A stretch of DNA of 54,733 bases from a virus. Under the pieces are notes generated by a model, which was not told where the DNA came from, did not search any database, and worked only from the letters and a program-made list of their open reading frames with translations. The stretch spans positions 1 through 54,733 of the IMG/VR virus record IMGVR_UViG_3300005436_000014; one strand, 5' to 3'. Below, in pieces: positions 1 through 54,733 of the stretch (position 1 is the stretch's first letter; each line of letters starts with the position of its first letter). The translations under genes and the position numbers were made by a program.

Positions 1-179
1 ATTAATCTTAAAAATTTTTTTTCTTGATCACTTGAGTAACCTTCAGGAATCTTTTTCGATATTAACCATATACGCTCAAGCATCCCAACAGACATGGGGT
101 TTCTATTATAATGAAATTTAGGTAAGTAGTATTTGACAATACCAGAGAAAAAGTTGCGTATTTTATAATAAGTTAACAT
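1..179 (-). CDS. Hypothetical protein, 3' end cut off by the window edge
   Basis: ATG at 177-179 opens a frame that runs off the left edge, giving 59 visible residues starting MLTYYKIRNFF. It is almost identical to the complete 92-residue gene at 54187-54465, so the missing C-terminus can be inferred from that copy. Function is unknown. If the genome is circular, this gene would lie just upstream of the terminase block in the same direction. Confidence 0.6.
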   Translation of the reverse strand, partial: MLTYYKIRNFFSGIVKYYLPKFHYNRNPMSVGMLERIWLISKKIPEGYSSDQEKKFLRL

Positions 180-185
180 CATTAA

Positions 186-416
186 TTAGCCCTCCTTATC
201 ATTTTCTAACATTTCCTTATCTATTCCTTCTAGAAATGCAATCTCAGCATCATGCCTGGTTGATCCATGTTTCATCAGGATTTCAATTGCTGAATCCATA
301 TATTTCAGATATGACATAAAATCTGGACCTATGAGTCCTAAAGTAGTATCTGGTCTATGTCGCAATAAAATTTCTAGGTATCTATTAATTGCGGTCATAT
401 CTTTTTTAATCATCAT
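186..416 (-). CDS. Small hypothetical protein (76 aa), variable gene of the terminal locus
   Basis: Starts MMIKKDMTAINRY. The ATG at 414-416 lies 11 bases after a GGAG and overlaps the end of the upstream gene slightly. An alternative ATG at 437 would add seven residues. I recognise no domain. The equivalent position in the right-hand copy of this locus holds an unrelated 68-residue gene, so this is a swappable accessory gene. Confidence 0.55.
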   Translation of the reverse strand: MMIKKDMTAINRYLEILLRHRPDTTLGLIGPDFMSYLKYMDSAIEILMKHGSTRHDAEIAFLEGIDKEMLENDKEG

Positions 417-666
417 CCGCTTTCTTTCTCCAAGCATTCTCTCTTAAATGTTCCGGTAGGTTAAGATTAAATCTTGGATATGGTACTTCATTACAACTAA
501 CATTAAATATTAGATTATTCATTCCTGAAACCTTTATATCTGGGTGCATCGAGCTAAGTTCAGATATGATCTGTCTTATAGTCATAGCATATTCTTGTCT
601 AAATATATCCATTTCCATATCAGGATCTACGGAAGATAACTCTTTTATTACATCACTTACTTTCAT
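406..666 (-). CDS. Small protein with two internal 'IKELSS.DPD' repeats
   Basis: This 86-residue protein opens MKVSDVIKELSSVDPDMEM and repeats the pattern at about residue 28 (TIRQIISELSSMHPDIKV). Related short motifs (helix, then PD/PN, then a short strand) occur in the products at 1291-1491 and 54473-54679. Such small proteins are common in phage genomes and have no assigned role. A close paralogue of its C-terminus (LNLPEHLRE, then a DDD end) appears at the right edge of the window. Confidence 0.65.
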   Translation of the reverse strand: MKVSDVIKELSSVDPDMEMDIFRQEYAMTIRQIISELSSMHPDIKVSGMNNLIFNVSCNEVPYPRFNLNLPEHLRENAWRKKADDD

Positions 667-847
667 TCTCGATCCTCTTGATTACTTGTTGCTCAGCAAC
701 ATAATCAACGTACATCTCTTGAGAGCGTCTATCAATTTGATCTTGAACTGATTTTGAGGGAACCCACAACACATACAAAGCAAAACACATAAAAAACCAA
801 AACGATATAATAGTTGCCCTACTCAACCATAGCCAATAATTGCACAT
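653..847 (-). CDS. Small single-pass membrane protein
   Basis: 64 aa. A hydrophobic helix spans about residues 9-29 (ATIISFWFFMCFALYVLWV), followed by a charged tail (DQIDRRSQ, IKRIENESK). It overlaps the start of the next gene by 14 bases, which suggests translational coupling. Function is unknown. Confidence 0.55.
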   Translation of the reverse strand: MCNYWLWLSRATIISFWFFMCFALYVLWVPSKSVQDQIDRRSQEMYVDYVAEQQVIKRIENESK

Positions 848-935: not shown

Positions 936-1124
936 TTATCTTAATTTCCCCAAATCCTTGAAACGGCTTAGTGGTACGAATGACCTTTGTATATATGCTT
1001 TCCGTCTGAAATCTTCAATTTCTCTTATTTCTTTCTTCGCAAGGCAAAAGTGAAGAAATCCAAAGATAAACTTATCTTTTACATATTTTCCGCAATACCC
1101 ACATTTTACATGACAAGAGCTCAT
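936..1124 (-). CDS. Small Cys-rich, probably zinc-binding protein
   Basis: 62 aa. The N-terminus has C-H-x-x-C-x-x-C spacing (residues 4-11) and a later H-F-C (about 26-28), so one zinc knuckle is plausible. The C-terminal half is basic. Its ATG overlaps the stop of the upstream 52-aa gene as ATGA. Function is unknown. Confidence 0.55.
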   Translation of the reverse strand: MSSCHVKCGYCGKYVKDKFIFGFLHFCLAKKEIREIEDFRRKAYIQRSFVPLSRFKDLGKLR

Positions 1125-1279
1125 TTTGTTATCTCCACATATGATTCATACCATTCAATAAAATGTGGCGTTATTGGCCCAACCTGGATGCCTGTTTCTT
1201 TTTCATATTGCATGATCACCTTACGAGTATAAGAAGGTTTTAATAATTCTTTTATAGCTGTAAGCTCTATTATTGCCAT
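1121..1279 (-). CDS. Small hypothetical protein (52 aa)
   Basis: ATG at 1277-1279 (MAIIELTAIKELLKPSY) runs to a TGA at 1121-1123 that overlaps the next gene's start as ATGA. It fills an otherwise empty gap in a tightly packed minus-strand series, which is the main support for it. Mixed-charge soluble protein with no recognised family. Confidence 0.55.
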   Translation of the reverse strand: MAIIELTAIKELLKPSYTRKVIMQYEKETGIQVGPITPHFIEWYESYVEITK

Positions 1280-1290
1280 GTTTCATTTTC

Positions 1291-1491
1291 CTATAAAATA
1301 ACAAAATCCCCTAAATCATCAATCGACATATCTTTTGATATCAGTATCCTCAAATCATCTCTTTGGCCTTTTTTATAAACATGTATCATTGGATCATGAA
1401 AACGATTATAAATGTGTTTCATTGTACTAGAGACAACTTCAGTATTAGGGTCAAGCCGTTGAAGGTGCTTTATTAGATGTTCAGCCTTCAT
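1291..1491 (-). CDS. Small protein with 'LIKHLQRLDPNTEV' motif
   Basis: 66 aa, starting MKAEHLIKHLQRLDPNTEVV. The opening is the same helix-DPN/DPD-strand pattern seen in the gene at 406-666, so the two are likely distant relatives. It lies three bases downstream of the zinc-finger gene. Function is unknown. Confidence 0.55.
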   Translation of the reverse strand: MKAEHLIKHLQRLDPNTEVVSSTMKHIYNRFHDPMIHVYKKGQRDDLRILISKDMSIDDLGDFVIL

Positions 1492-1494
1492 TCT

Positions 1495-1806
1495 TCATTT
1501 TCCTTTTCCTTTTCCTTTAATTTCAATCAACTTTAAAACATCCCTTACTTGTTTCAAAATACCAAGGATTGAATCTTCTTTAGCCCAATAACGATTATCC
1601 CAATCAATTCTACGCCTTAATTCCCCCAAATTTCTTTGTATCAACTTTAGCTTGTTTGCTGCTAATTCGTTCCTCTTTTCGAGGCTTAACTCTGATGCAT
1701 AGCTTTCAATTGGTATGCAATCAATATTTTTTACAAGATGCATTTTTAAGCCCAAATCATTTTTCAAGAGTTTAAAACAATAAGGACATTCAATTTTATT
1801 ATTCAT
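1495..1806 (-). CDS. C2HC zinc-finger protein
   Basis: 103 aa. Residues 7-30 fit a single zinc finger: C-P-Y-C, 12 residues, H, five residues, C (CPYCFKLLKNDLGLKMHL, then NIDC). A helical, charged region follows and the tail is GKGKGK. This could be a small nucleic-acid-binding regulator, but no target is visible. It belongs to the minus-strand series of small genes. Confidence 0.6.
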   Translation of the reverse strand: MNNKIECPYCFKLLKNDLGLKMHLVKNIDCIPIESYASELSLEKRNELAANKLKLIQRNLGELRRRIDWDNRYWAKEDSILGILKQVRDVLKLIEIKGKGKGK

Positions 1807-1827
1807 ATCTATTTTCCATAATCCAGA

Positions 1828-2187
1828 TTATGAAACCCATTCTTTGTACAACTCTTGTTTCGATGACTCCTCTATGCTCTCAAAAATTGGAAAATCACAT
1901 TGAAATTCATTATAAAGATCTTTTGTTACAGCCAATATATCGTCACATAAAGTTTCATAAAATTTATCAATTATATCCTTCTTATTTATTTTTGATTCCA
2001 ATGAAGAATTAATAATTTCAAAAATTTGATCTTGCACTTTTCCAATTCTAAGGCATTCTCCATAAATCCACGCTAACTGTCCTTCCAAGCGAGAAAGTTG
2101 GTCTTTCTTGATGAATACACTAAAATTATCTCTTACATCTTCTAGCCGCTCAATTAACTCATCAGCTGTCATCGGCTTATTTTCCAT
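1828..2187 (-). CDS. Hypothetical helical protein (119 aa)
   Basis: Starts MENKPMTADELIERLEDVRD. Predicted largely alpha-helical, acidic and soluble. A 19-codon mini-frame ending at the start codon precedes it and may only provide coupling. I recognise no family. Confidence 0.55.
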   Translation of the reverse strand: MENKPMTADELIERLEDVRDNFSVFIKKDQLSRLEGQLAWIYGECLRIGKVQDQIFEIINSSLESKINKKDIIDKFYETLCDDILAVTKDLYNEFQCDFPIFESIEESSKQELYKEWVS

Positions 2188-2244
2188 TATCTAATTCCCC
2201 TATTGTTTTGTTTATGTCTTCTTTCTTAAAATCCATAATACAGA

Positions 2245-2487
2245 TTATGCGATTTCTGGGGGACTTCTTGGGATGCCATGTAAAAAATACTCACGACCGT
2301 CAGCATCACTTTGATGATATACGTTTTTTCCTGTCCATATATAAATTGTCTGAACATCATCTTTCCATGGATTAGCTAGTTCTTTATCTGATAAATTGTG
2401 ATAGATTACATCAGACCATTTTTCGCGGTATTCCTCTAGCTCTGCTTCAATCCACTCTTTTAAAGTTTTGTAATCTTCAATAGTCAT
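2245..2487 (-). CDS. Hypothetical acidic protein (80 aa)
   Basis: Starts MTIEDYKTLKEWIEAELEEY. Rich in Glu, Asp and Trp, with no membrane segment or motif I can name. It sits between two other unknown minus-strand genes with ordinary spacing. Confidence 0.55.
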   Translation of the reverse strand: MTIEDYKTLKEWIEAELEEYREKWSDVIYHNLSDKELANPWKDDVQTIYIWTGKNVYHQSDADGREYFLHGIPRSPPEIA

Positions 2488-2528
2488 TTTTAAACCCCCA
2501 CGGTCATCGTCTTATTCTCAGTCATTTC

Positions 2529-2861
2529 CTATTCTTTCACCAAAGTTATATCATTTATTTCAAGTTTTCTTGCTTTGATCCATGAATCCAATTCTGTAAC
2601 CATGCATGTATAACTAAAATAATATCTTGGGAATCCATCCGCAGAATCTATATAGCATTTATCCTGAAACCCCGTCTTATGAGAAGCTAGAACACTACAT
2701 TTTCCTCGATCCTGTGCTGTTTTAGAAACATGTTGGATAGTAACAGTAGCGTAATTCAAGTCTATTGTTATGTAAGATGTGGGGTTATACTCCCAATCAT
2801 TGAAGATTGGATAATATTTTTGATCACAAAAAATATCAATTATATCTTTTTTATTAGTCAT
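2529..2861 (-). CDS. Hypothetical protein (110 aa)
   Basis: Starts MTNKKDIIDIFCDQKYY. Aromatic-rich, with alternating hydrophobic residues (YITIDLNYATVTIQHV) suggesting beta strands. The first residues (NKKDIIDIF) echo an internal stretch of the 119-aa product at 1828-2187 (NKKDIIDKF). Function is unknown. Confidence 0.55.
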   Translation of the reverse strand: MTNKKDIIDIFCDQKYYPIFNDWEYNPTSYITIDLNYATVTIQHVSKTAQDRGKCSVLASHKTGFQDKCYIDSADGFPRYYFSYTCMVTELDSWIKARKLEINDITLVKE

Positions 2862-2908
2862 ATTTATTAACTTCCCTGATAATACCTATCATGTTACAAT
2901 ATATTGGA

Positions 2909-2936
2909 GCAGGGAACGTGGCTGAGACCGCCCTGC
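2909..2936. other. GC-rich hairpin in an AT-rich intergenic gap
   Basis: GCAGGG (2909-2914) is complementary to CCCTGC (2931-2936), separated by a 16-base loop. It lies between two minus-strand genes. There is no good T-tract, so it is a weak terminator candidate. It could instead be an mRNA stability or processing element. Confidence 0.4.
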
Positions 2937-2967
2937 GGTTAAACATATATAGCATAAAAATCCTACA

Positions 2968-3228
2968 TTATTTTCTAGATTGATGGTATTTTTCCATCTT
3001 TTTATCGGTCCATATTCTTACTTTATTTCCTATTCCTAACTTATTTATGTGAGGTGATATATTATCATCCCACCACATGAAAAAACTAATAATTCCCCAA
3101 ATTACAAGGCCTACAATACCTAATAATATAAGGATTATACATAAAATATCAGCTATGCCCTCGAAAATACCAATATTGTTATAAATAAACATACCAACAA
3201 CTACGCTTGCAATAACTCCAATGCTCAT
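2968..3228 (-). CDS. Small membrane protein with two predicted helices
   Basis: 86 aa. Hydrophobic stretches lie at about residues 3-16 and 28-52 (ILCIILILLGIVGLVIWGII). A basic C-terminal tail follows (WTDKKMEKYHQSRK). It is four genes away from any recognised gene, so a role in lysis or superinfection exclusion is only a possibility. Confidence 0.6.
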   Translation of the reverse strand: MSIGVIASVVVGMFIYNNIGIFEGIADILCIILILLGIVGLVIWGIISFFMWWDDNISPHINKLGIGNKVRIWTDKKMEKYHQSRK

Positions 3229-3229
3229 T

Positions 3230-3316
3230 TTATTTATCCTCTTTCATTGTAATAATTGGCATTTCGAGGGTATCTACTAGAATGCCGTTTTTAAATAGTG
3301 GTATGTTTACAGTCAT
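3230..3316 (-). CDS. Very small protein (28 aa)
   Basis: ATG at 3314-3316 overlaps the stop of the upstream gene as ATGA, and its TAA abuts the start of the downstream membrane protein. The peptide is MTVNIPLFKNGILVDTLEM plus nine residues. Tight coupling on both sides is the only evidence that it is translated. Confidence 0.4.
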   Translation of the reverse strand: MTVNIPLFKNGILVDTLEMPIITMKEDK

Positions 3317-3501
3317 TGCGTTAATCCTTTTTTCATATTAATTGCACTTTTCAATAGCCTTGCAGCTTTTGTTCTCTTGTCTACAATCATTAGCCAAAAG
3401 TTAAGATCGTTTAAAGAATGCTCAGATGCTAAATCTTCCACTTTAAAACGAGCCACAATAAGCCAATTCTGAAGCTTTTCTTTGTATTCTTGCCTATCCA
3501 T
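3313..3501 (-). CDS. Hypothetical protein (62 aa)
   Basis: Starts MDRQEYKEKLQNWLIVARFK. Basic and helical, with no membrane segment. First gene of this minus-strand run after the plus-strand DinJ-YafQ module. Family not recognised. Confidence 0.5.
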   Translation of the reverse strand: MDRQEYKEKLQNWLIVARFKVEDLASEHSLNDLNFWLMIVDKRTKAARLLKSAINMKKGLTQ

Positions 3502-3568
3502 TTTCTATCTCCAAGTTATGTTTTCTAATCGATACAACCATAACTTAACATTATAGTAATTATGATGT

Positions 3569-3609
3569 CAACAATTAAATGTTGAAATATTATAATTTTG
3601 TGATAATAT
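3569..3609 (+). promoter_or_regulatory. Promoter and candidate operator of the DinJ-YafQ module
   Basis: TTGAAA (3582-3587) and TAATAT (3604-3609) are 16 bases apart and point at the antitoxin gene. An interrupted palindrome CAACA-6-TGTTG (3569-3584) overlaps the -35. That is where an autoregulating RHH antitoxin would be expected to bind. An AGGAG ribosome site follows, before the ATG at 3640. Confidence 0.5.
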
Positions 3610-3639
3610 GTGAACGTAATAACATTTAGGAGATAAAAA

Positions 3640-3894
3640 ATGAATAAAACCGCTCGCATGACCATACTTGTTGAACCTGAGCTAAAAGCACAAGCCAACG
3701 AGGTTTTCGGTAAAATTGGTATGTCTACAGCTACGGCATTTAGAATGCTTATGAAATACGCCGTAAAACACAACACATGCCCTTGTTGGATGTTTGAACC
3801 CAATGCAGAAACCATTCAGGCTATGGAAGATTGCAACAATGGTATTGGATTGACGCGCGTAACACTAGATGAATTGAGAAAGAAATATAAATAA
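3640..3894 (+). CDS. dinJ: RelB/DinJ-type antitoxin (ribbon-helix-helix)
   Basis: 84 aa. The N-terminal strand TARMTILVEPELKAQANEVF and the helix MSTATAFRMLMKYAV match the RelB/DinJ ribbon-helix-helix fold, and the acidic/basic C-terminus would wrap the toxin. Such antitoxins neutralise a YafQ-type RNase and repress their own promoter. It overlaps the toxin start by one base (taATG). It has its own promoter and lies on the strand opposite to the surrounding genes, so it looks like an independently acquired cassette. Confidence 0.85.
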   Translation: MNKTARMTILVEPELKAQANEVFGKIGMSTATAFRMLMKYAVKHNTCPCWMFEPNAETIQAMEDCNNGIGLTRVTLDELRKKYK

Positions 3895-4163
3895 TGTTGA
3901 ATCTTATTCAAACAAATTCATTTATTAGAGATCTTAAGATTCTTCAAAAACGTAGGGTAAAACTAGAAAAGCTATGGAATTTAGTTGATCTGATTGAGAA
4001 TGAGAAGCCTCTATTACCAAAACATAAAAACCATTTACTCATTAATAATTGGAAAGAACACTGGGAATGTCACATCTCATTCGATTGGGTGCTTATTTAT
4101 AAGATTGAGGGGGATAATCTTTATCTTGTTAGAACGGGTACGCATAGTGACTTATTTATTTGA
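3894..4163 (+). CDS. yafQ: YafQ-type mRNA interferase toxin
   Basis: 89 aa, the usual length for YafQ. Counterparts of the residues important in E. coli YafQ can be placed: H47, H60 (in ECH), D64-W65 (FDW), H84 (GTHSDLF) and F88. The toxin should cut translated mRNA in the ribosome A site when free of antitoxin. All the key residues are intact, so it is probably active. It may serve plasmid-like maintenance or block competing phages. Confidence 0.85.
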   Translation: MLNLIQTNSFIRDLKILQKRRVKLEKLWNLVDLIENEKPLLPKHKNHLLINNWKEHWECHISFDWVLIYKIEGDNLYLVRTGTHSDLFI

Positions 4164-4242
4164 TGAAAATTAAATAACCCTATCACCATCTCACCAATGT
4201 TTTAAAAATGAGGCGTGAACCACTCTAAAGATAGGGCATACT

Positions 4243-4389
4243 ATGTTATATCAAATTATTGGATCGTATAAAACCCCATTGAGTAATGATATATGGAGGA
4301 AAATAGGATTCCAGTTACAAAACCCAATATCCATGACCATATATGGTTATAAAGTGGTCTGGGAAACAAATCGTCATCTGAAAACCTAA
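4243..4389 (+). CDS. Possible small protein (48 aa) after the TA pair
   Basis: Frame MLYQIIGSYKTPLSNDIW runs to TAA at 4387-4389, with a modest AGGG upstream. It fills the gap between the toxin and a convergent minus-strand gene. No recognised domain; it may be a chance frame. Confidence 0.3.
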   Translation: MLYQIIGSYKTPLSNDIWRKIGFQLQNPISMTIYGYKVVWETNRHLKT

Positions 4390-4401
4390 ACATCTTTGAC
4401 A

Positions 4402-4836
4402 TCAAATACCTGCCTTAGCCATTCTAGTGTTGATATCGAGCATTTGAGCTGCAAAGTCTATCATCTCTATCGTCTTTTGCCTGTCTCTTATCATAGCATA
4501 TAGCTTTTCACCCTCTTCAACAGTTATCAGGCCCTCACCAACACTCTCATATATCTTTGATTGATTAACCGCTATGTCCTCTAGGGTATTTATAGGAGTT
4601 AGTGGAAAACTCATAGCTCTAGATCCTTTGGCATTGGGAAGAACTTTGTTAACAAGGAACATAGCTACGTCTTTGTCTCCCTCTGAAGCAAGTTTATCTA
4701 GCATATCGTAATGTGTCTTTACCCTCTCCTCACCAATACGATGTAATTCTAATAAAGCAGAATTAGATCTTCCCTTTGGTTTTCCTGGACCAATATTATT
4801 TCCCACGCCGAAAGTACCATCACCGTTTCTTGTCAT
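4402..4836 (-). CDS. DUF5681-like phage protein, possible small-terminase analogue
   Basis: 144 aa. The glycine/lysine opening (VGNNIGPGKPKGRSNS, residues 11-26) is the hallmark of DUF5681 proteins. The middle (LASEGDKDVAMFLVNKVLPNAKG) and the helical C-terminus also fit that group. These proteins often occur near phage packaging genes, and a DNA-recognition role in packaging has been suggested by context only. Here the large terminase is far away on a linear map but only about 5 kb away if the genome is circular. Its start overlaps the upstream gene by four bases. Confidence 0.6.
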   Translation of the reverse strand: MTRNGDGTFGVGNNIGPGKPKGRSNSALLELHRIGEERVKTHYDMLDKLASEGDKDVAMFLVNKVLPNAKGSRAMSFPLTPINTLEDIAVNQSKIYESVGEGLITVEEGEKLYAMIRDRQKTIEMIDFAAQMLDINTRMAKAGI

Positions 4837-13797: not shown

Positions 13798-14391
13798 ATG
13801 AAAATAAAAAAAAGAATCTATAAAAAAAGAGAGCGAAAGCATCTTTTAGAGCATGAAATTTCAATAATTTACGACATGTGTGAGCGAACAAAGTTCCCAT
13901 TGCGCAATAAATTGTTAATACTCATGTCATACAACCATGCCCTTAGACCGTCCGAGACGTGTGATTTAAAGTGGTCAGATATAGATTTAATTAATAATAT
14001 CATACACATAAAGAGAAAAAAGAATGGTGTGAGCGGTTATCATCCAATAGAATGTCAAACAACGCTTGAGCTTTTAAAACAACACAAAGAAAGGAGATAT
14101 CTTCCCGATAAATATGTATTTATGTCTCAATATAAGCGCCCACCAACAAAATTAGACCCAGATAATTATAATGATTTGTGTGAAAAGTTAGGAATTATGG
14201 CAGGATTTGATTTTAAATTCACCCCCCATATGCTGAGACACTCAAAACCAACCAAACTGATAGAGGATGGTGTGAATATTATGGTAGTAAAGGGTCTCAT
14301 GGGCCATTCAAAAGTTTCTTCAACAGAAATATATATACATATGGGAATAAATCAATATAGAGGATTAACTAAGGGATCAATGTTTGCATGA
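13798..14391 (+). CDS. int: Tyrosine recombinase (integrase), catalytic domain only
   Basis: 197 aa. Carries the full catalytic set: R50 (ALRPSE), Lys in IKRKKNG (72-76), H144-x-x-R147-H148 (HMLRHS), H170 (MGHSKVSS) and nucleophile Y179 (TEIYIH). It lacks the N-terminal core-binding domain of lambda-type integrases, so it resembles the short FimB-like class. It could integrate the phage, resolve dimers or invert a segment. No attachment site or crossover repeat is identifiable nearby. The HTH protein at 7738-8022 is a possible excisionase. Confidence 0.85.
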   Translation: MKIKKRIYKKRERKHLLEHEISIIYDMCERTKFPLRNKLLILMSYNHALRPSETCDLKWSDIDLINNIIHIKRKKNGVSGYHPIECQTTLELLKQHKERRYLPDKYVFMSQYKRPPTKLDPDNYNDLCEKLGIMAGFDFKFTPHMLRHSKPTKLIEDGVNIMVVKGLMGHSKVSSTEIYIHMGINQYRGLTKGSMFA

Positions 14392-30269: not shown

Positions 30270-31058
30270 TCATGATTTAGCTAATCCATACATAGTAATG
30301 GTTCCACTTGAGATATTTCCTGAAGAAAAATAGAATTTTACGGAGGTATAAGTAGCTGCTGCAACATAAAATGAAACACTGGAAGTAGCACAATATTGTG
30401 TTGTAGCTGTTATATAGCCCAGTTGACCAACGCCAGTTCCAAAATTTGATGTATTGTTAGTTCCAATAATGTATAAATATCCATTCATCCCTGAAAAAGA
30501 ACTATTAGCTCCATATGTTCCTTGATTTTGATTTAATACAATTTGTGCATCTGATGTGCTATTCAACAAGAAAACACTGCCTGCCACATTGATTTCGCTT
30601 TGCCATTTATACCCAGAGGTAGTCCATGTTGGTGTTCCCCCCGTACCTAATTGAGAATAAAATATGACGTTATTTGTTACTGGGATAACATTCGTAAAAG
30701 TAAACATATAAACATCATAGGTAGAGCTAAATTTACTATCAAACTCAACAGTTGCCTGATTGGATGCTGTAATAGCTTGAATTTTAACTAATTTATCTCC
30801 TGGTGCTGCTTGCCAAGTCGGTAAAGCACCAGCACCATTCGATGTTAAGACATTTGTAGAACTTCCTACTCCAGAAACGTTTTGAAATATTCCTGCCGAT
30901 GTAGTCCCAGCACACAGAACAGAATAGGCCGTAAAAGATGATGCGCCTGTGCCGCCATGACCAGCATCAACAGCGGTTCCATTCCATGTGCCTGTTGTAA
31001 TGGTTCCTAATGTTGTGATCTTTGATGATCCAATTCCAATTATAGTATTTGTTGTCAT
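30270..31058 (-). CDS. Tail fibre/receptor-binding protein, tandem paralogue 3
   Basis: 262 aa. N-terminal module (ITTLGTITTGTWNGT, GTTSAGIFQNVSG, VLTSNGAGALPTWQA) joined to a C-terminal domain starting IQAITASNQATVEFDSKF and ending YTSVKFYFSSGNISSGTITM. The two ends are conserved among the three tandem copies and the centre differs. It shares a perfect 71-base stretch with the next gene (30809-30879 against 31598-31668). Confidence 0.75.
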   Translation of the reverse strand: MTTNTIIGIGSSKITTLGTITTGTWNGTAVDAGHGGTGASSFTAYSVLCAGTTSAGIFQNVSGVGSSTNVLTSNGAGALPTWQAAPGDKLVKIQAITASNQATVEFDSKFSSTYDVYMFTFTNVIPVTNNVIFYSQLGTGGTPTWTTSGYKWQSEINVAGSVFLLNSTSDAQIVLNQNQGTYGANSSFSGMNGYLYIIGTNNTSNFGTGVGQLGYITATTQYCATSSVSFYVAAATYTSVKFYFSSGNISSGTITMYGLAKS

Positions 31059-31847
31059 TTATGGTGTCACTCCATACATACAAATAGTTCCAGAACTGAC
31101 ATTCCCTGTGTTAAAATAAAATTGTATTGAAGTATAATTTGCTGCGGAATTAAAAAAGTTTGCGATATTTGTATATGCAAATGTACTTCCTGTATCTAGA
31201 TATGCAAATCTTCCATTACCGTTAATAAATTGTGAGGAATTATTTGGGCCATGTATATATAGATAACCGCTTATACCGCCATTTGTATTTGGTATATAAT
31301 GTGTACTTGCATTTTGTGAAAGAACAGCTTGAGAATCATTTTGTGCAAATTCACCTTGCCTAGAACCAATAATGCCCAAGGATGACCAATAATAACCTGT
31401 CGCTGTCCATGTCGGTGTTGCACCCGTTCCAACACGAGAATATAAAAATGTAGCATTTGTGACGGGTATCACATTTGTAAATGTAAATAAATATACATTA
31501 TAAGATGAACTAAAATGACTATCAAAATCTACTGATGCTTGGTTTGATGCCGTTATTGAAACTATTTTTGTTAATCCTGATGTTCCTCCAGCAAGAGCTT
31601 GCCAAGTCGGTAAAGCACCAGCACCATTCGATGTTAAGACATTTGTAGAACTTCCTACTCCAGAAACATTCTGAAATGTTCCTGTAGATGTCGTGCCAGC
31701 ACAAATTACTGAATAAGCCGTAAATGTCGTATTGTTTGTGCCACCATGGGATACATCAAGGGTCGTTGCATTCCACGTTCCAGTTGAAATGGTACCTAAT
31801 GTTGTTATGGTTGATGAACCAACGTCTGATGAGCTATTAGTGGTCAT
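31059..31847 (-). CDS. Tail fibre/receptor-binding protein, tandem paralogue 2
   Basis: 262 aa with the same two-part layout. The N-terminal module ([20 protein letters not shown]) leads to the C-terminal ITASNQASVDFDSHFSSSYN...YTSIQFYFNTGNVSSGTICM domain. It overlaps the upstream copy by four bases (ATGA). The central part (about 150-220) is the most divergent and is the likely receptor surface. Confidence 0.75.
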   Translation of the reverse strand: MTTNSSSDVGSSTITTLGTISTGTWNATTLDVSHGGTNNTTFTAYSVICAGTTSTGTFQNVSGVGSSTNVLTSNGAGALPTWQALAGGTSGLTKIVSITASNQASVDFDSHFSSSYNVYLFTFTNVIPVTNATFLYSRVGTGATPTWTATGYYWSSLGIIGSRQGEFAQNDSQAVLSQNASTHYIPNTNGGISGYLYIHGPNNSSQFINGNGRFAYLDTGSTFAYTNIANFFNSAANYTSIQFYFNTGNVSSGTICMYGVTP

Positions 31848-32629
31848 GGATTTATTCCATACATACGTATTGTTCCGCTATTAACATTTCCCCCACTAAA
31901 ATAAAATTTTATAGATGTATATGTAGCCGCCGCATGATAAAAAGTTATTTCATTTAATGCTATGTATGAATTCGTGTTTGTTAAATACATACCGTGTCCA
32001 TTACCATAAATTACATTAGAGGTACCGTTTGCACCATATACATATAGATACCCATTATATCCCGCAGAAGCATTTGTAATAAGTTGTGGAGAAGTGTTTC
32101 CAGACAATGCAAAAGAACTATCATTTTGATTATTATAATTAACATTACTTCCATTGGCGCAAAATGTATCAAACCAATTATATGCTGTAGTGACCCAAGT
32201 GGGTCCTGCTCCCGTTCCTACTTGACTTATTAGAAAATCAGTCGCAGAAACAGGCTGAACATTCGTAAAAGTGAATAAATATGTATTGTATGAGGACGTA
32301 AATTGGCTATCGAATTCAACTGTTGCCTGATTAGATGCAGTTATTGCCTGAATTAATGATAAACCGCCACTTCCTCCCCCTTGCCAAGTGGGCAAAGCAG
32401 AAGCACCATTAGATGTCAAAACTTGTCCAGCTGTTCCTACTCCAGAAACATTCTGAAATGTCCCTGTCGCTGTTGTTCCAGCACATATAACTGAATAAGC
32501 CGTAAATGTCGTATTGTTTGTGCCACCATGGGATACCGCAAAAGATGTACCATTCCAAATTCCAGAACTTATTGTTCCCAGGGTTGTAATCGAAGTTGAG
32601 CCAATGTCAAGTGAGGTGTTTGTCGTCAT
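31844..32629 (-). CDS. Tail fibre/receptor-binding protein, tandem paralogue 1
   Basis: 261 aa. The module GTISSGIWNGTSFAVSHGG precedes ITASNQATVEFDSQFTSSYN and the end YTSIKFYFSGGNVNSGTIRM. About 48 bases near 32489-32536 are identical to the second copy (31706-31753), indicating recent duplication or gene conversion. Confidence 0.75.
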   Translation of the reverse strand: MTTNTSLDIGSTSITTLGTISSGIWNGTSFAVSHGGTNNTTFTAYSVICAGTTATGTFQNVSGVGTAGQVLTSNGASALPTWQGGGSGGLSLIQAITASNQATVEFDSQFTSSYNTYLFTFTNVQPVSATDFLISQVGTGAGPTWVTTAYNWFDTFCANGSNVNYNNQNDSSFALSGNTSPQLITNASAGYNGYLYVYGANGTSNVIYGNGHGMYLTNTNSYIALNEITFYHAAATYTSIKFYFSGGNVNSGTIRMYGINP

Positions 32630-42606: not shown

Positions 42607-44247
42607 CTATGTCCTTATCTTAAGAGGATTGGATGGATTCTGAATCGTATTAAGGGTAATCTCATTTTCTTCAATCAAAACGGCCTCAGTGGTTAAGAAT
42701 AAGCCAGCAATAGAGGAAGCATCCTGAAGGGCTGTTATGACAACCTTAGTTGGATCAATAATACCTTGCTCGATCATATCAACTATGTATCCACGTTCCG
42801 CATCGTATCCTATACCAAATCCACTTCCATTAAGATTATCTTCTATAATGGTCTTAATATTATCCGCTGATAATCCAGCATTGGAAAGGATCTGGTAAAA
42901 GGGCTTTACGACAGTTTGCCATAAGATCTGACATCCCTCATCTCTTTGGTTATCACCAATAATCTCAAAACAATGATATGCGGCTTTTAAAAGAGCAATA
43001 CCACCCCCTGGCAATATACCCTCTTGTAGGGCCGCTCTGGTTGCATGAACAGCATCTTCGACTCTATCTTTTCGCTCTTTCATTTCGAACTCAGTAGTTC
43101 CACCTACCTTTATAATGGCTATACCATTGGTAAGCTTTGCATATCGTTCTTCAAATCTCTTCTTTGAGTAATCATCTTCAGCTTTAGAAATTTCTTCTTT
43201 GAGATATTGACATCGTGTATCAAAATCTTCTTTAGATCCTTGCCCATCCACAATCGTTGTTTTTTCGGCTGTAACAATAACTCGTTTGGCTTTGCCCAAT
43301 AACTCTCTATTAACATTAATTAGTCTCATTCCCTTATCTTCAGAAACGATTTGCGTTCCTGTTACAACAGATAGGTCGCTTAATAGGTCATTTCTGTTTT
43401 CGCCAAAGGAGGGACACTTAATAGCGCATATCTTTAAGCCATGCTTCATTTTGTTGATGATAAGAGTAGCAAGAGCTTCAGATTCTACATCTTCAGCAAT
43501 AATAAGGAGAGCTGCTCCGTCTCGCATAATGGATTCAACCAAAGGAACGATTGGGGCAACACCAGCAATCTTATTATCAAATATTAGGATGTAAGGATTA
43601 TCTAATTCACATATCATTTTATTGGGGTTAGTTACAAAATAAGGTGATATTAAACCTTTATCTAACTCAAGTCCCTCAACAATGCGAGATTCAGTCTTCC
43701 CATTAACTGATTCTTCTAATGTTATGACACCTTCTTTTCCAACCTTGATAAATGTATCTGCAATAAGCTTTCCAATCTCAACATCACCGTTAGCTGAAAT
43801 GGTTGCAATTTGCTCGATTTCTGACTCATTTGAGATGATTTTGGAATGATCGCGTAGGTACTTCACAGTTTTTGTGCATGCCATGTCAATCCCACGCTTT
43901 AATTCAATAGGATTTGCGCCATCTTCAATGGCTTTCATTCCCTCATTGATAATATGCTGGGCAAGGACTGTAGCCGTAGTGGTTCCATCCCCAGCAATAT
44001 CACAGGTTTTCATAGCAACTTGACGAATTAGTTCAGCACCAACACTTTCAAACTCATCATATAATTCTACTTCCTTAGCAACGGATACTCCGTCTTTGGT
44101 AATACGGATAGGGTAGTGTGTATTCTTTATAATAACGTTCCTGCCTTTTGGTCCTAATGTGACTTTGACGGCATCGGCTATTTTATTAACCCCTACCAAT
44201 ATCTTTTCACGACCTTCTTTACCAAAGGCAAGGTGTTTCGGAAGCAT
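42607..44247 (-). CDS. groEL: Phage-encoded GroEL chaperonin
   Basis: 546 aa, full length. Conserved in place: TLGPKGRN (30-37), D52, DGTTTA with D87, D398 in RVEDAVHATRAA, and GGG at 414-416. Apical substrate-binding positions are mostly hydrophobic (L199, Y203, F204, V234, V237, L259, I263, I264). The C-terminus ends NPLKIRT and lacks the Gly-Met tail of many bacterial GroELs. It should form an ATP-driven folding cage. Its position among the head genes suggests capsid folding. A GroES-like gene lies upstream at 46000-46422. Confidence 0.95.
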   Translation of the reverse strand: MLPKHLAFGKEGREKILVGVNKIADAVKVTLGPKGRNVIIKNTHYPIRITKDGVSVAKEVELYDEFESVGAELIRQVAMKTCDIAGDGTTTATVLAQHIINEGMKAIEDGANPIELKRGIDMACTKTVKYLRDHSKIISNESEIEQIATISANGDVEIGKLIADTFIKVGKEGVITLEESVNGKTESRIVEGLELDKGLISPYFVTNPNKMICELDNPYILIFDNKIAGVAPIVPLVESIMRDGAALLIIAEDVESEALATLIINKMKHGLKICAIKCPSFGENRNDLLSDLSVVTGTQIVSEDKGMRLINVNRELLGKAKRVIVTAEKTTIVDGQGSKEDFDTRCQYLKEEISKAEDDYSKKRFEERYAKLTNGIAIIKVGGTTEFEMKERKDRVEDAVHATRAALQEGILPGGGIALLKAAYHCFEIIGDNQRDEGCQILWQTVVKPFYQILSNAGLSADNIKTIIEDNLNGSGFGIGYDAERGYIVDMIEQGIIDPTKVVITALQDASSIAGLFLTTEAVLIEENEITLNTIQNPSNPLKIRT

Positions 44248-52284: not shown

Positions 52285-53928
52285 TTAATAGAATGTCTCT
52301 TTATTTGGGTTGCTATAATTGTCCATTATATAGTTATCATCTGGGTGGTCAATCCACGCCGATAATCGAAGTTTGATTAATGCCTGACTCATGCTATCGA
52401 CAATATCCTTAGAGTTTTCATCATTTGGAAATACGGCGCATGCTTCTAAAAATGAGTCTGCAAATGGTCTCAATGTTGTATAACTTGGCGGTCTTGCTGG
52501 AAGCCAAACTTTACCAGATTCAATAATATGTGAGATCTTGCGCAATCTTGCTACCTTATCGCCACCTCCCTGATGTAAGGGATCGAACCTCGTTAATATA
52601 ATACCAGCCCTATTAAGGTCTTGAATGAGAGGACCACCATTCGCTTTATTCTCAACAAGTATCATATCAGGGCGCAATATATAATCTTCAGGTACTGGGT
52701 TGTCGATTTGAATATCGTAGTAATTCTTTGCAAGCCTTATCATCATGCGTCGTACGTCTGGGTTCTCTAACCTGCCATGCCACATGCTTAAAAGCATAAT
52801 CTGTGCTACATCGTGTTGATCTTTGAATATACCCCATGTAGTACATGCGCTACATGCTGCTGTTATTCCCTTACTATATGCTGTATCCCATGACTGCAAT
52901 ATGTACTCACATCGAGGCGGTGTTGGCATCTTCCATATCTGAAACCAGCTTTTCTTAATAATACCACCCTCAGCAGGTGCTGGTCGTTGTTGAAGCTGAC
53001 CAGCTCTAATGTAGTCGGTACGCATCTTAATCTTAAGCTTACTAAGCTCGTCTGGTCCTATTCGCGCAGGCCACAGTAGGTCACCCTCATTCTTTCTTGG
53101 ATCTGCCCATGGCTTCCCCTGTGTGCTGGGAAGGGGTATTGTAACGCACCTTCTATTTGTCTCGAATTCCATAGGTAAACACAAATGGACTAAATCTGGT
53201 ATTTCTTGACTAAGGATATGTCCAGAATAATCTTGAGCATGAAGCCGTTGTTGAACGATAATGACACTACCTGTCTTTAGGTTGTTTAACCGTGAAGATA
53301 ATGTTGAATCGCACCAATCGTTCGTTGATTCCCTTATTGTCTCGCTCTCCGTATCTCCAGCATTGTTAGGGTCATCTAGAACAATAATATCTCCGCCCTC
53401 ACCCGTTGCGGTCCCACCGATAGATGATGAAATCCTATATCCTGTCTTATCATTATCAAATCTAAGCTTGGTGTTTACATCTCCGCATATCTTATATCGA
53501 TTGCCCCACCTTTCCTGATACCACTTTGATGCAATGATACGTCTACACTTAACGCTATCCTTCATAGAAAGTTTCTCAGCATAGGATAGGAAGAGGAATT
53601 GTAGATGAGGATCAGCTATCCAACACCATGAAGGAAACATGACCGATACTGTAGTGGATTTCATACAGCGGGGCGGTTCGTTGATTAGGAGAGTTTTAAT
53701 CTGTCCGTTTTTCACGGCTTCAAGATGTTCGCAAATTGCACCTATATGCCAACCATCTACGAACTCTCTTCCACCTTCTACTATGTGCCATGCACCTTTT
53801 GTGAATGAGTGAAGGGTTTTTCCGTATAGTTCGGCCTCTTCAATCAATCTTTCATCTATGATTGGTTCATGAGTATTAAGTCTAAACTTCCAATCATTAA
53901 CGATTTTTAAGCTAGATGCGTGTAACAA
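52285..53928 (-). CDS. terL: Large terminase subunit
   Basis: 547 aa. Walker A-like PPRCMKST (85-92), Walker B DIIVLDDP (180-187), VQQRLHAQD motif (225-233) and nuclease motif QSWDTA (345-350), with another acidic segment LVENKANG further on. It powers DNA packaging and cuts concatemers. The start is TTG at 53926-53928, directly after an in-frame TGA that closes a five-codon mini-frame (MGFI stop). No ATG occurs before the Walker A region. Confidence 0.9.
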   Translation of the reverse strand: MLHASSLKIVNDWKFRLNTHEPIIDERLIEEAELYGKTLHSFTKGAWHIVEGGREFVDGWHIGAICEHLEAVKNGQIKTLLINEPPRCMKSTTVSVMFPSWCWIADPHLQFLFLSYAEKLSMKDSVKCRRIIASKWYQERWGNRYKICGDVNTKLRFDNDKTGYRISSSIGGTATGEGGDIIVLDDPNNAGDTESETIRESTNDWCDSTLSSRLNNLKTGSVIIVQQRLHAQDYSGHILSQEIPDLVHLCLPMEFETNRRCVTIPLPSTQGKPWADPRKNEGDLLWPARIGPDELSKLKIKMRTDYIRAGQLQQRPAPAEGGIIKKSWFQIWKMPTPPRCEYILQSWDTAYSKGITAACSACTTWGIFKDQHDVAQIMLLSMWHGRLENPDVRRMMIRLAKNYYDIQIDNPVPEDYILRPDMILVENKANGGPLIQDLNRAGIILTRFDPLHQGGGDKVARLRKISHIIESGKVWLPARPPSYTTLRPFADSFLEACAVFPNDENSKDIVDSMSQALIKLRLSAWIDHPDDNYIMDNYSNPNKETFY

Positions 53929-53995: not shown

Positions 53996-54190
53996 TTAAA
54001 ATTTTATCTTTTTAGATTTATTTAAAGGATTTGGTAGCCATTCATTTTTAAGGTGATATAAAATCTTCTGCCGTCTTTTTTTTGCGTAATAATATCTTCC
54101 CCCACCAAATGATTTATATATAGACTGTTCAAGTGTGTTTATATAATTCATAGAATCAGATAGGAAGGTGGGGAAAAAATCACCATTCAT
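53996..54190 (-). CDS. Small basic hypothetical protein (64 aa)
   Basis: Starts MNGDFFPTFLSDSMNYINTL, with a very basic middle and end (YAKKRRQKILYHLK, LNKSKKIKF). Overlaps the upstream gene by four bases. Its place just upstream of terL could suit a DNA-binding packaging partner, but there is no motif evidence. Confidence 0.55.
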   Translation of the reverse strand: MNGDFFPTFLSDSMNYINTLEQSIYKSFGGGRYYYAKKRRQKILYHLKNEWLPNPLNKSKKIKF

Positions 54191-54465
54191 TTTTCACCAA
54201 AAAATATATGCTTTGTTGCCTCATAATCTTCATATGAAATAAATTCATGGGTAGAATACCGATAGTCTTTCTTTAATACGTTAATTAATCTTAAAAATTT
54301 TTTTTCTTGATCACTTGAGTAACCTTCAGGAATCTTTTTCGATATTAACCATATACGCTCAAGCATCCCAACAGATATGGGGTTTCTATTATAATGAAAT
54401 TCAGGAAAGTAGTATCGGACAATACCAGAGAAAAAGTTGCGTATTTTATAATATGTTAATAACAT
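54187..54465 (-). CDS. Hypothetical protein (92 aa), complete copy of the 1-179 gene
   Basis: MLLTYYKIRNFFSGIVRYYF and on; about 90 percent identical at protein level to the partial product at the left edge. Helical, with no recognised domain. Gives the missing end of the left-hand copy. Confidence 0.65.
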   Translation of the reverse strand: MLLTYYKIRNFFSGIVRYYFPEFHYNRNPISVGMLERIWLISKKIPEGYSSDQEKKFLRLINVLKKDYRYSTHEFISYEDYEATKHIFFGEK

Positions 54466-54472
54466 AGATCAA

Positions 54473-54679
54473 TTAACCCTCCGTATACAAACGTTTGACC
54501 TGCGTAACTAAATAGACATTTCCTTTTTCATCTTTCCCGTCAGTAAAGTCTACTGTACAAAATCCGCTGTCAGGATCAGTTATTACTTTTGCATCATCAG
54601 GAAAAGTATTTAGAAAATCTTTTAATACTTTTACAGTTGGAGAGTTTGTCCATCCATCACTTGTTAATTTAATCGTCAT
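54473..54679 (-). CDS. Small hypothetical protein (68 aa), variable gene of the right copy
   Basis: ATG 54677-54679 (MTIKLTSDGWTNSP), or GTG one codon upstream. Contains VKVLKDFLNTFPDDAKVITD, like the IKELSS.DPD-type motif of the gene at 406-666. It stands where the left copy has the unrelated 76-aa gene. Confidence 0.55.
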   Translation of the reverse strand: MTIKLTSDGWTNSPTVKVLKDFLNTFPDDAKVITDPDSGFCTVDFTDGKDEKGNVYLVTQVKRLYTEG

Positions 54680-54733
54680 CACCCACCTTCTCTCCCCAGG
54701 CTTTCTCTCTTAAATGTTCCGGTAGGTTAAGAT
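54669..54733 (-). CDS. C-terminal fragment of a 406-666 paralogue, cut by the window edge
   Basis: Reads LNLPEHLREKAWGEKVGDDD then TAA at 54669-54671. The equivalent end of the 406-666 product is LNLPEHLRENAWRKKADDD, so this is a close homologue whose 5' part lies outside the window. Confidence 0.6.
   Translation of the reverse strand, partial: LNLPEHLREKAWGEKVGDDD

Follow-up and report, generated by a model that had tools for sequence, protein, structure and literature searches.

Mismatched ends of a tailed-phage contig as probable strain versions of one accessory locus on a circular map

Results

The window, by which we mean the whole 54,733-nt stretch of viral DNA analysed here, is very probably one complete, circular-mapping genome of a tailed phage, with ends that represent the same place in two co-existing strains differing by a swapped gene. 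When the ends are overlapped by about 450-470 bp, the size of the circular genome comes to about 54,266-54,283 bp. Judged from the sequence, the two end versions are a one-gene swap between conserved flanks.

Two probable versions of one locus at the ends

BLASTN between the two ends of the window showed the end segments to be homologous at both of their edges. Positions 1-199 aligned with 54284-54486 at 93% identity (E about 9e-83), and 410-467 with 54676-54733 at 88% (E about 6e-15). In a whole-window scan, these were, among the direct repeats listed (20 of 21 families), the only ones to join the ends. The genes at both ends and in the adjoining interval were as follows.

1-182 (-): shared flank of version A, the first 60 codons (3-182) of a 92-aa gene, cut by the contig start; 93% nucleotide identity to 54284-54486 and 91.7% amino acid identity to the complete copy
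186-437 (-): middle gene of version A, 83 aa (76 aa from an inner ATG)
406-666 (-): 86-aa gene in full; its last 19-20 codons recur at the other end; N-terminal motif phrog_5861 (E 4e-5), function unknown
653-847 (-): small protein of 64 aa, hydrophobic in its N-terminal half and, judged by eye, probably a membrane protein; an anchor, with related genes upstream of TerL in relatives G001 and G002
936-4401 (no strand assigned): remaining part of the accessory interval bordered by the 144-aa gene and TerL; it contains a RelB/YafQ-like toxin-antitoxin pair at 3640-4163 (+)
4402-4836 (-): conserved 144-aa gene, outer border of the variable interval
52285-53928 (-): terminase large subunit (TerL), 547 aa, inner border of the variable interval; phrog_38 (E 4.5e-78), 76% identical to G001 and 74% to G002
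53996-54190 (-): 64-aa ORF between TerL and the 92-aa gene
54187-54465 (-): shared flank of version B, the complete 92-aa gene
54473-54682 (-): middle gene of version B, 69 aa (68 aa from ATG)
54675-54733 (-): C-terminal 20 codons of the 86-aa gene in version B, cut by the contig end and overlapping the start of the 69-aa gene

Read along the minus strand, the left end carries the 64-aa gene, the 86-aa gene, the 83-aa gene and the start of the 92-aa gene, and the right end carries the tail of the 86-aa gene, the 69-aa gene, the complete 92-aa gene, the 64-aa gene and TerL. The C-terminus of the 86-aa protein reads LNLPEHLREKAWGEKVGDDD at one end versus LNLPEHLRENAWRKKADDD at the other, each followed by a stop. 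The 83-aa and 69-aa middle ORFs showed no significant similarity to each other (best BLASTP E 1.5-1.8, 28% over 21 aa), in agreement with the original prediction that the genes in between (given as 76 versus 68 aa) are unrelated. That prediction had placed the shared flanks at 1-179 and 437-471, matching 54284-54465 and 54699-54733. The similarity itself was reproduced, whereas the boundaries are those of the BLASTN alignments above; since the exact run at the contig end is 31 bp, the second segment should read 437-467, matching 54703-54733.

From the contig start inwards the two versions are identical for 92 bp, and from the contig end inwards for 31 bp; all mismatches are confined to the side facing the cassette. 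On the start side they lie at 93, 119, 123, 133 and 134 (five within 93-134), with a few more beyond 170, and on the end side seven fall within 416-436. The shared part of the 92-aa gene holds eight nucleotide changes in six codons, five of which alter the amino acid. The exact overhangs add up to 123 (92 + 31 bp), a k-mer length used by some assemblers, possibly by chance; no assembly mechanism could be derived from the sum, and we treated it as coincidence.

Searches for relatives of the end genes were negative. The 92-aa, 83-aa and 69-aa proteins had no relatives among annotated phages, and the 92-aa and 69-aa proteins had no matches among viral contigs. The single viral-contig match of the 83-aa protein (L095) lies on the strand opposite a tail gene and is interrupted by a stop, and was set aside as chance. 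With both shared flanks used as DNA patterns, no further viral contig matched, and neither these nor the protein searches of viral contigs, a collection from which near-identical records may have been withheld, found a second contig with version A or B. We also looked in the middle genes for the motif LI..L...PD..V of the neighbouring small genes. It was rejected for the 83-aa protein, as 699/1511 reported shuffles scored as high, and is weak in the 69-aa protein (122/1587 reported shuffles).

Overlapping the ends keeps the genes intact

The way in which the ends are joined determines whether the genes at the junction are whole. When the ends are overlapped, the 92-aa and 86-aa genes are both complete, so this model needs no broken genes. 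Abutting them instead brings the 92-aa frame to a stop two residues beyond the junction and leaves the tail of the 86-aa gene without a start. The ends must therefore be overlapped, not abutted. It had been proposed that, joined end to end, the leftward small genes would run directly into the terminase; the joining has to be corrected to an overlap, since abutted ends truncate the 92-aa gene and leave a fragment of the 86-aa gene.

Relatives place the break inside a circular map

The map was examined by comparison with two uncultivated phages, G001 (IMGVR_UViG_3300031708_000013, 52,743 bp, TerL 76% identical) and G002 (IMGVR_UViG_3300003321_000545, 52,989 bp, TerL 74% identical). Both are colinear with the window, rotated and continuous across its break. 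In G001, 1.8-41.5 kb corresponds to about 14-54 kb of the window and 43.3-51.6 kb to 4.4-16.6 kb, and the break of the window is internal, with G001 41.5-43.3 kb joining window 54.0 kb to 4.4 kb. The break of G001 itself (window about 14-17 kb) is in turn internal to the window. In the parts of G002 compared, window 4.4-5.1 kb is followed by 53.9 kb, and G002 is broken at about 42 kb of the window. Three related contigs (52.7-54.7 kb) are thus broken at three different places, which makes the map circular, as would be expected of a circularly permuted or circularising genome. Together with the genes left intact by the overlap, contigs of relatives that cross the break and break elsewhere support the earlier suggestion that the sequence was assembled from two variants of a genome that is circular or circularly permuted.

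G001 and G002 resemble the window in genome size (about 53 kb), in gene order where compared, and in capsid (91%) and TerL (74-76%), and both have, upstream of TerL, an accessory interval that includes a RelB antitoxin gene and a gene for a related small protein. They differ in the position of their breaks, in their other small genes, in the length of the interval (1.9 and 7.3 kb) and in lacking a homologue of the 92-aa gene. Because none of the relatives has such a homologue, the single-copy arrangement at the exact spot is inferred from the flanking genes. The nearest cultured relatives are CRP-901 and CRP-902, reported as circular assemblies of 53.0 and 52.0 kb with terminal repeats (PMC10149686). 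They share with the window 42% TerL identity, a genome of 52-53 kb, a Mu-gpT-like major capsid annotation and the reported circular assembly, but are distant, have the small terminase annotated directly upstream of TerL and carry other accessory genes.

The ends fall in a variable accessory slot

The interval from the 144-aa gene to TerL, about 4.8 kb in the window, measures 1.9 kb in G001, 7.3 kb in G002, 0.76 kb in G003, 0.57 kb in G007 and 2.4 kb in G012. Across these five relatives the borders are conserved, the length ranges from 0.57 to 7.3 kb and the gene content is almost unshared. A sixth relative, G006, carries its homologue of the 144-aa gene on the opposite strand. On this sequence comparison, the stretch is a hypervariable accessory-gene slot adjoining the terminase, and the window ends fall in it. 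Given a slot that is accessory and variable, a one-gene difference between two close strains is unsurprising. From its position, the 144-aa gene may tentatively be guessed to be a small terminase; no family matched it.

Few genes recur within the slot. Of the small minus-strand genes tested, the 64-aa gene at 653-847 alone gave a tblastn match, which was to G002 (E 5e-5); in G001 it aligns with a gene immediately before TerL. The window, G001 and G002 all have RelB-like antitoxin genes in this interval. The window has a RelB plus YafQ/RelE-like toxin-antitoxin pair (3640-4163, +), and no toxin gene was recognised alongside the RelB-like antitoxin genes of the relatives (L004:4798-5013, -; L087:5051-5272, -), which are possibly kept as counter-defence.

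Weighing of alternative explanations

A real tandem duplication, with both versions side by side in one genome and the contig cut at the junction between 54733 and 1, would account for the presence of one version at each end of a single contig whose map, as the relatives show, is circular. Such a junction, however, cuts the 92-aa gene of copy A and leaves a startless tail of the 86-aa gene, and the cut must coincide exactly with the boundary between the copies. Simple duplication does not produce unrelated middles either, and two copies were seen in none of the relatives, so that we consider a duplication highly unlikely. The exchanged middle gene between conserved flanks, and the tyrosine recombinase encoded at 13798-14391, would be in keeping with programmed switching or cassette exchange at dedicated recombination sites in one phage lineage. 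The recombinase gene is nevertheless about 13 kb off rather than adjacent, the flanks are ordinary coding sequence whose divergence is gradual, and no inverted repeats flanking the cassette were found in the inverted-repeat list of the window, where one weak pair touches the ends and has its other arm 11.8 kb away. We give this reading next to no weight. The real duplicated, cassette-swapping locus envisaged in the original prediction is accordingly unsupported, its abutted junction breaking genes, and nothing favours a tandem duplication or a switching cassette.

Packaging start sites often adjoin the terminase gene, as do the window ends, which would suit virion DNA whose physical ends are fixed and bear terminal repeats that have diverged. 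Within a single molecule, however, terminal repeats are normally identical copies; those of the window differ and enclose unrelated middle genes, and contigs of relatives cross the site. Fixed ends are extremely improbable. There is also very little chance that the small-gene position by the terminase has been repeatedly exchanged between unrelated genes via conserved flanks, possibly as a switchable or duplicated locus in one lineage.

Under the preferred reading of two strains co-existing in the sample, the order into TerL would be the 86-aa gene, one swappable gene (83 aa in strain A, 69 aa in strain B), the 92-aa gene, the 64-aa gene and TerL. The strains would be nearly identical outside the swap, and the assembler would for that reason have collapsed them into one sequence over the remainder of the circle, using version A at one end and version B at the other. 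Because the ends differ, it would have stopped at these strain-variant ends and left the circle unclosed. Recombination within the conserved flanking genes probably replaced one accessory gene by another and so gave rise to the two versions, and mismatches found only near the swapped gene are as expected if the gene was imported with its immediate flanks.

Other genes in the window and its relatives

Several further features were observed. The window encodes a GroEL/Cpn60 chaperonin of 546 aa (42607-44247, -; Pfam E 1.6e-67). Its tyrosine recombinase is short (197 aa, + strand; Pfam Phage_integrase E 2.5e-36) and suggests a temperate life style or a resolvase function. In the tail-gene region, three successive related genes of 261-262 aa are spaced by about 785 bp (30270-32629, -). 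The TerL of G007 (L089:734-3427, -) has 897 aa, and is interrupted about 90 residues from its start by an intein plus LAGLIDADG endonuclease domain, adjoining the ATP-binding motif. That of G012 (L090:3555-5139) is split into two ORFs of 405 and 126 aa in different frames, which may reflect a frameshift, a sequencing error or an inserted element. A capsid relative (35%) was found in L096 (RXKF01000009.1), a contig of a Rickettsiales metagenome-assembled genome, and may be a host hint or a mis-binned phage.

Discussion

The ends of the window most likely reflect ordinary phage mosaicism and microdiversity combined with an assembly break, rather than a duplicated locus of a new kind. Short-read assemblies of viral genomes are reported to be fragmented by microdiversity and genomic islands (PMC6487183). 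Like the window, the genomic islands of environmental phages described there place alternative gene content at a fixed place in close strains and break short-read assemblies, whereas the case in the window is seen as two contig ends.

The contig is thus probably a complete genome even though its ends do not match. Where the ends of a circular genome fall in a variable slot, checks that rely on exact identity of end repeats can overlook such a genome. In this phage group, the stretch upstream of TerL is a hotspot of accessory genes.
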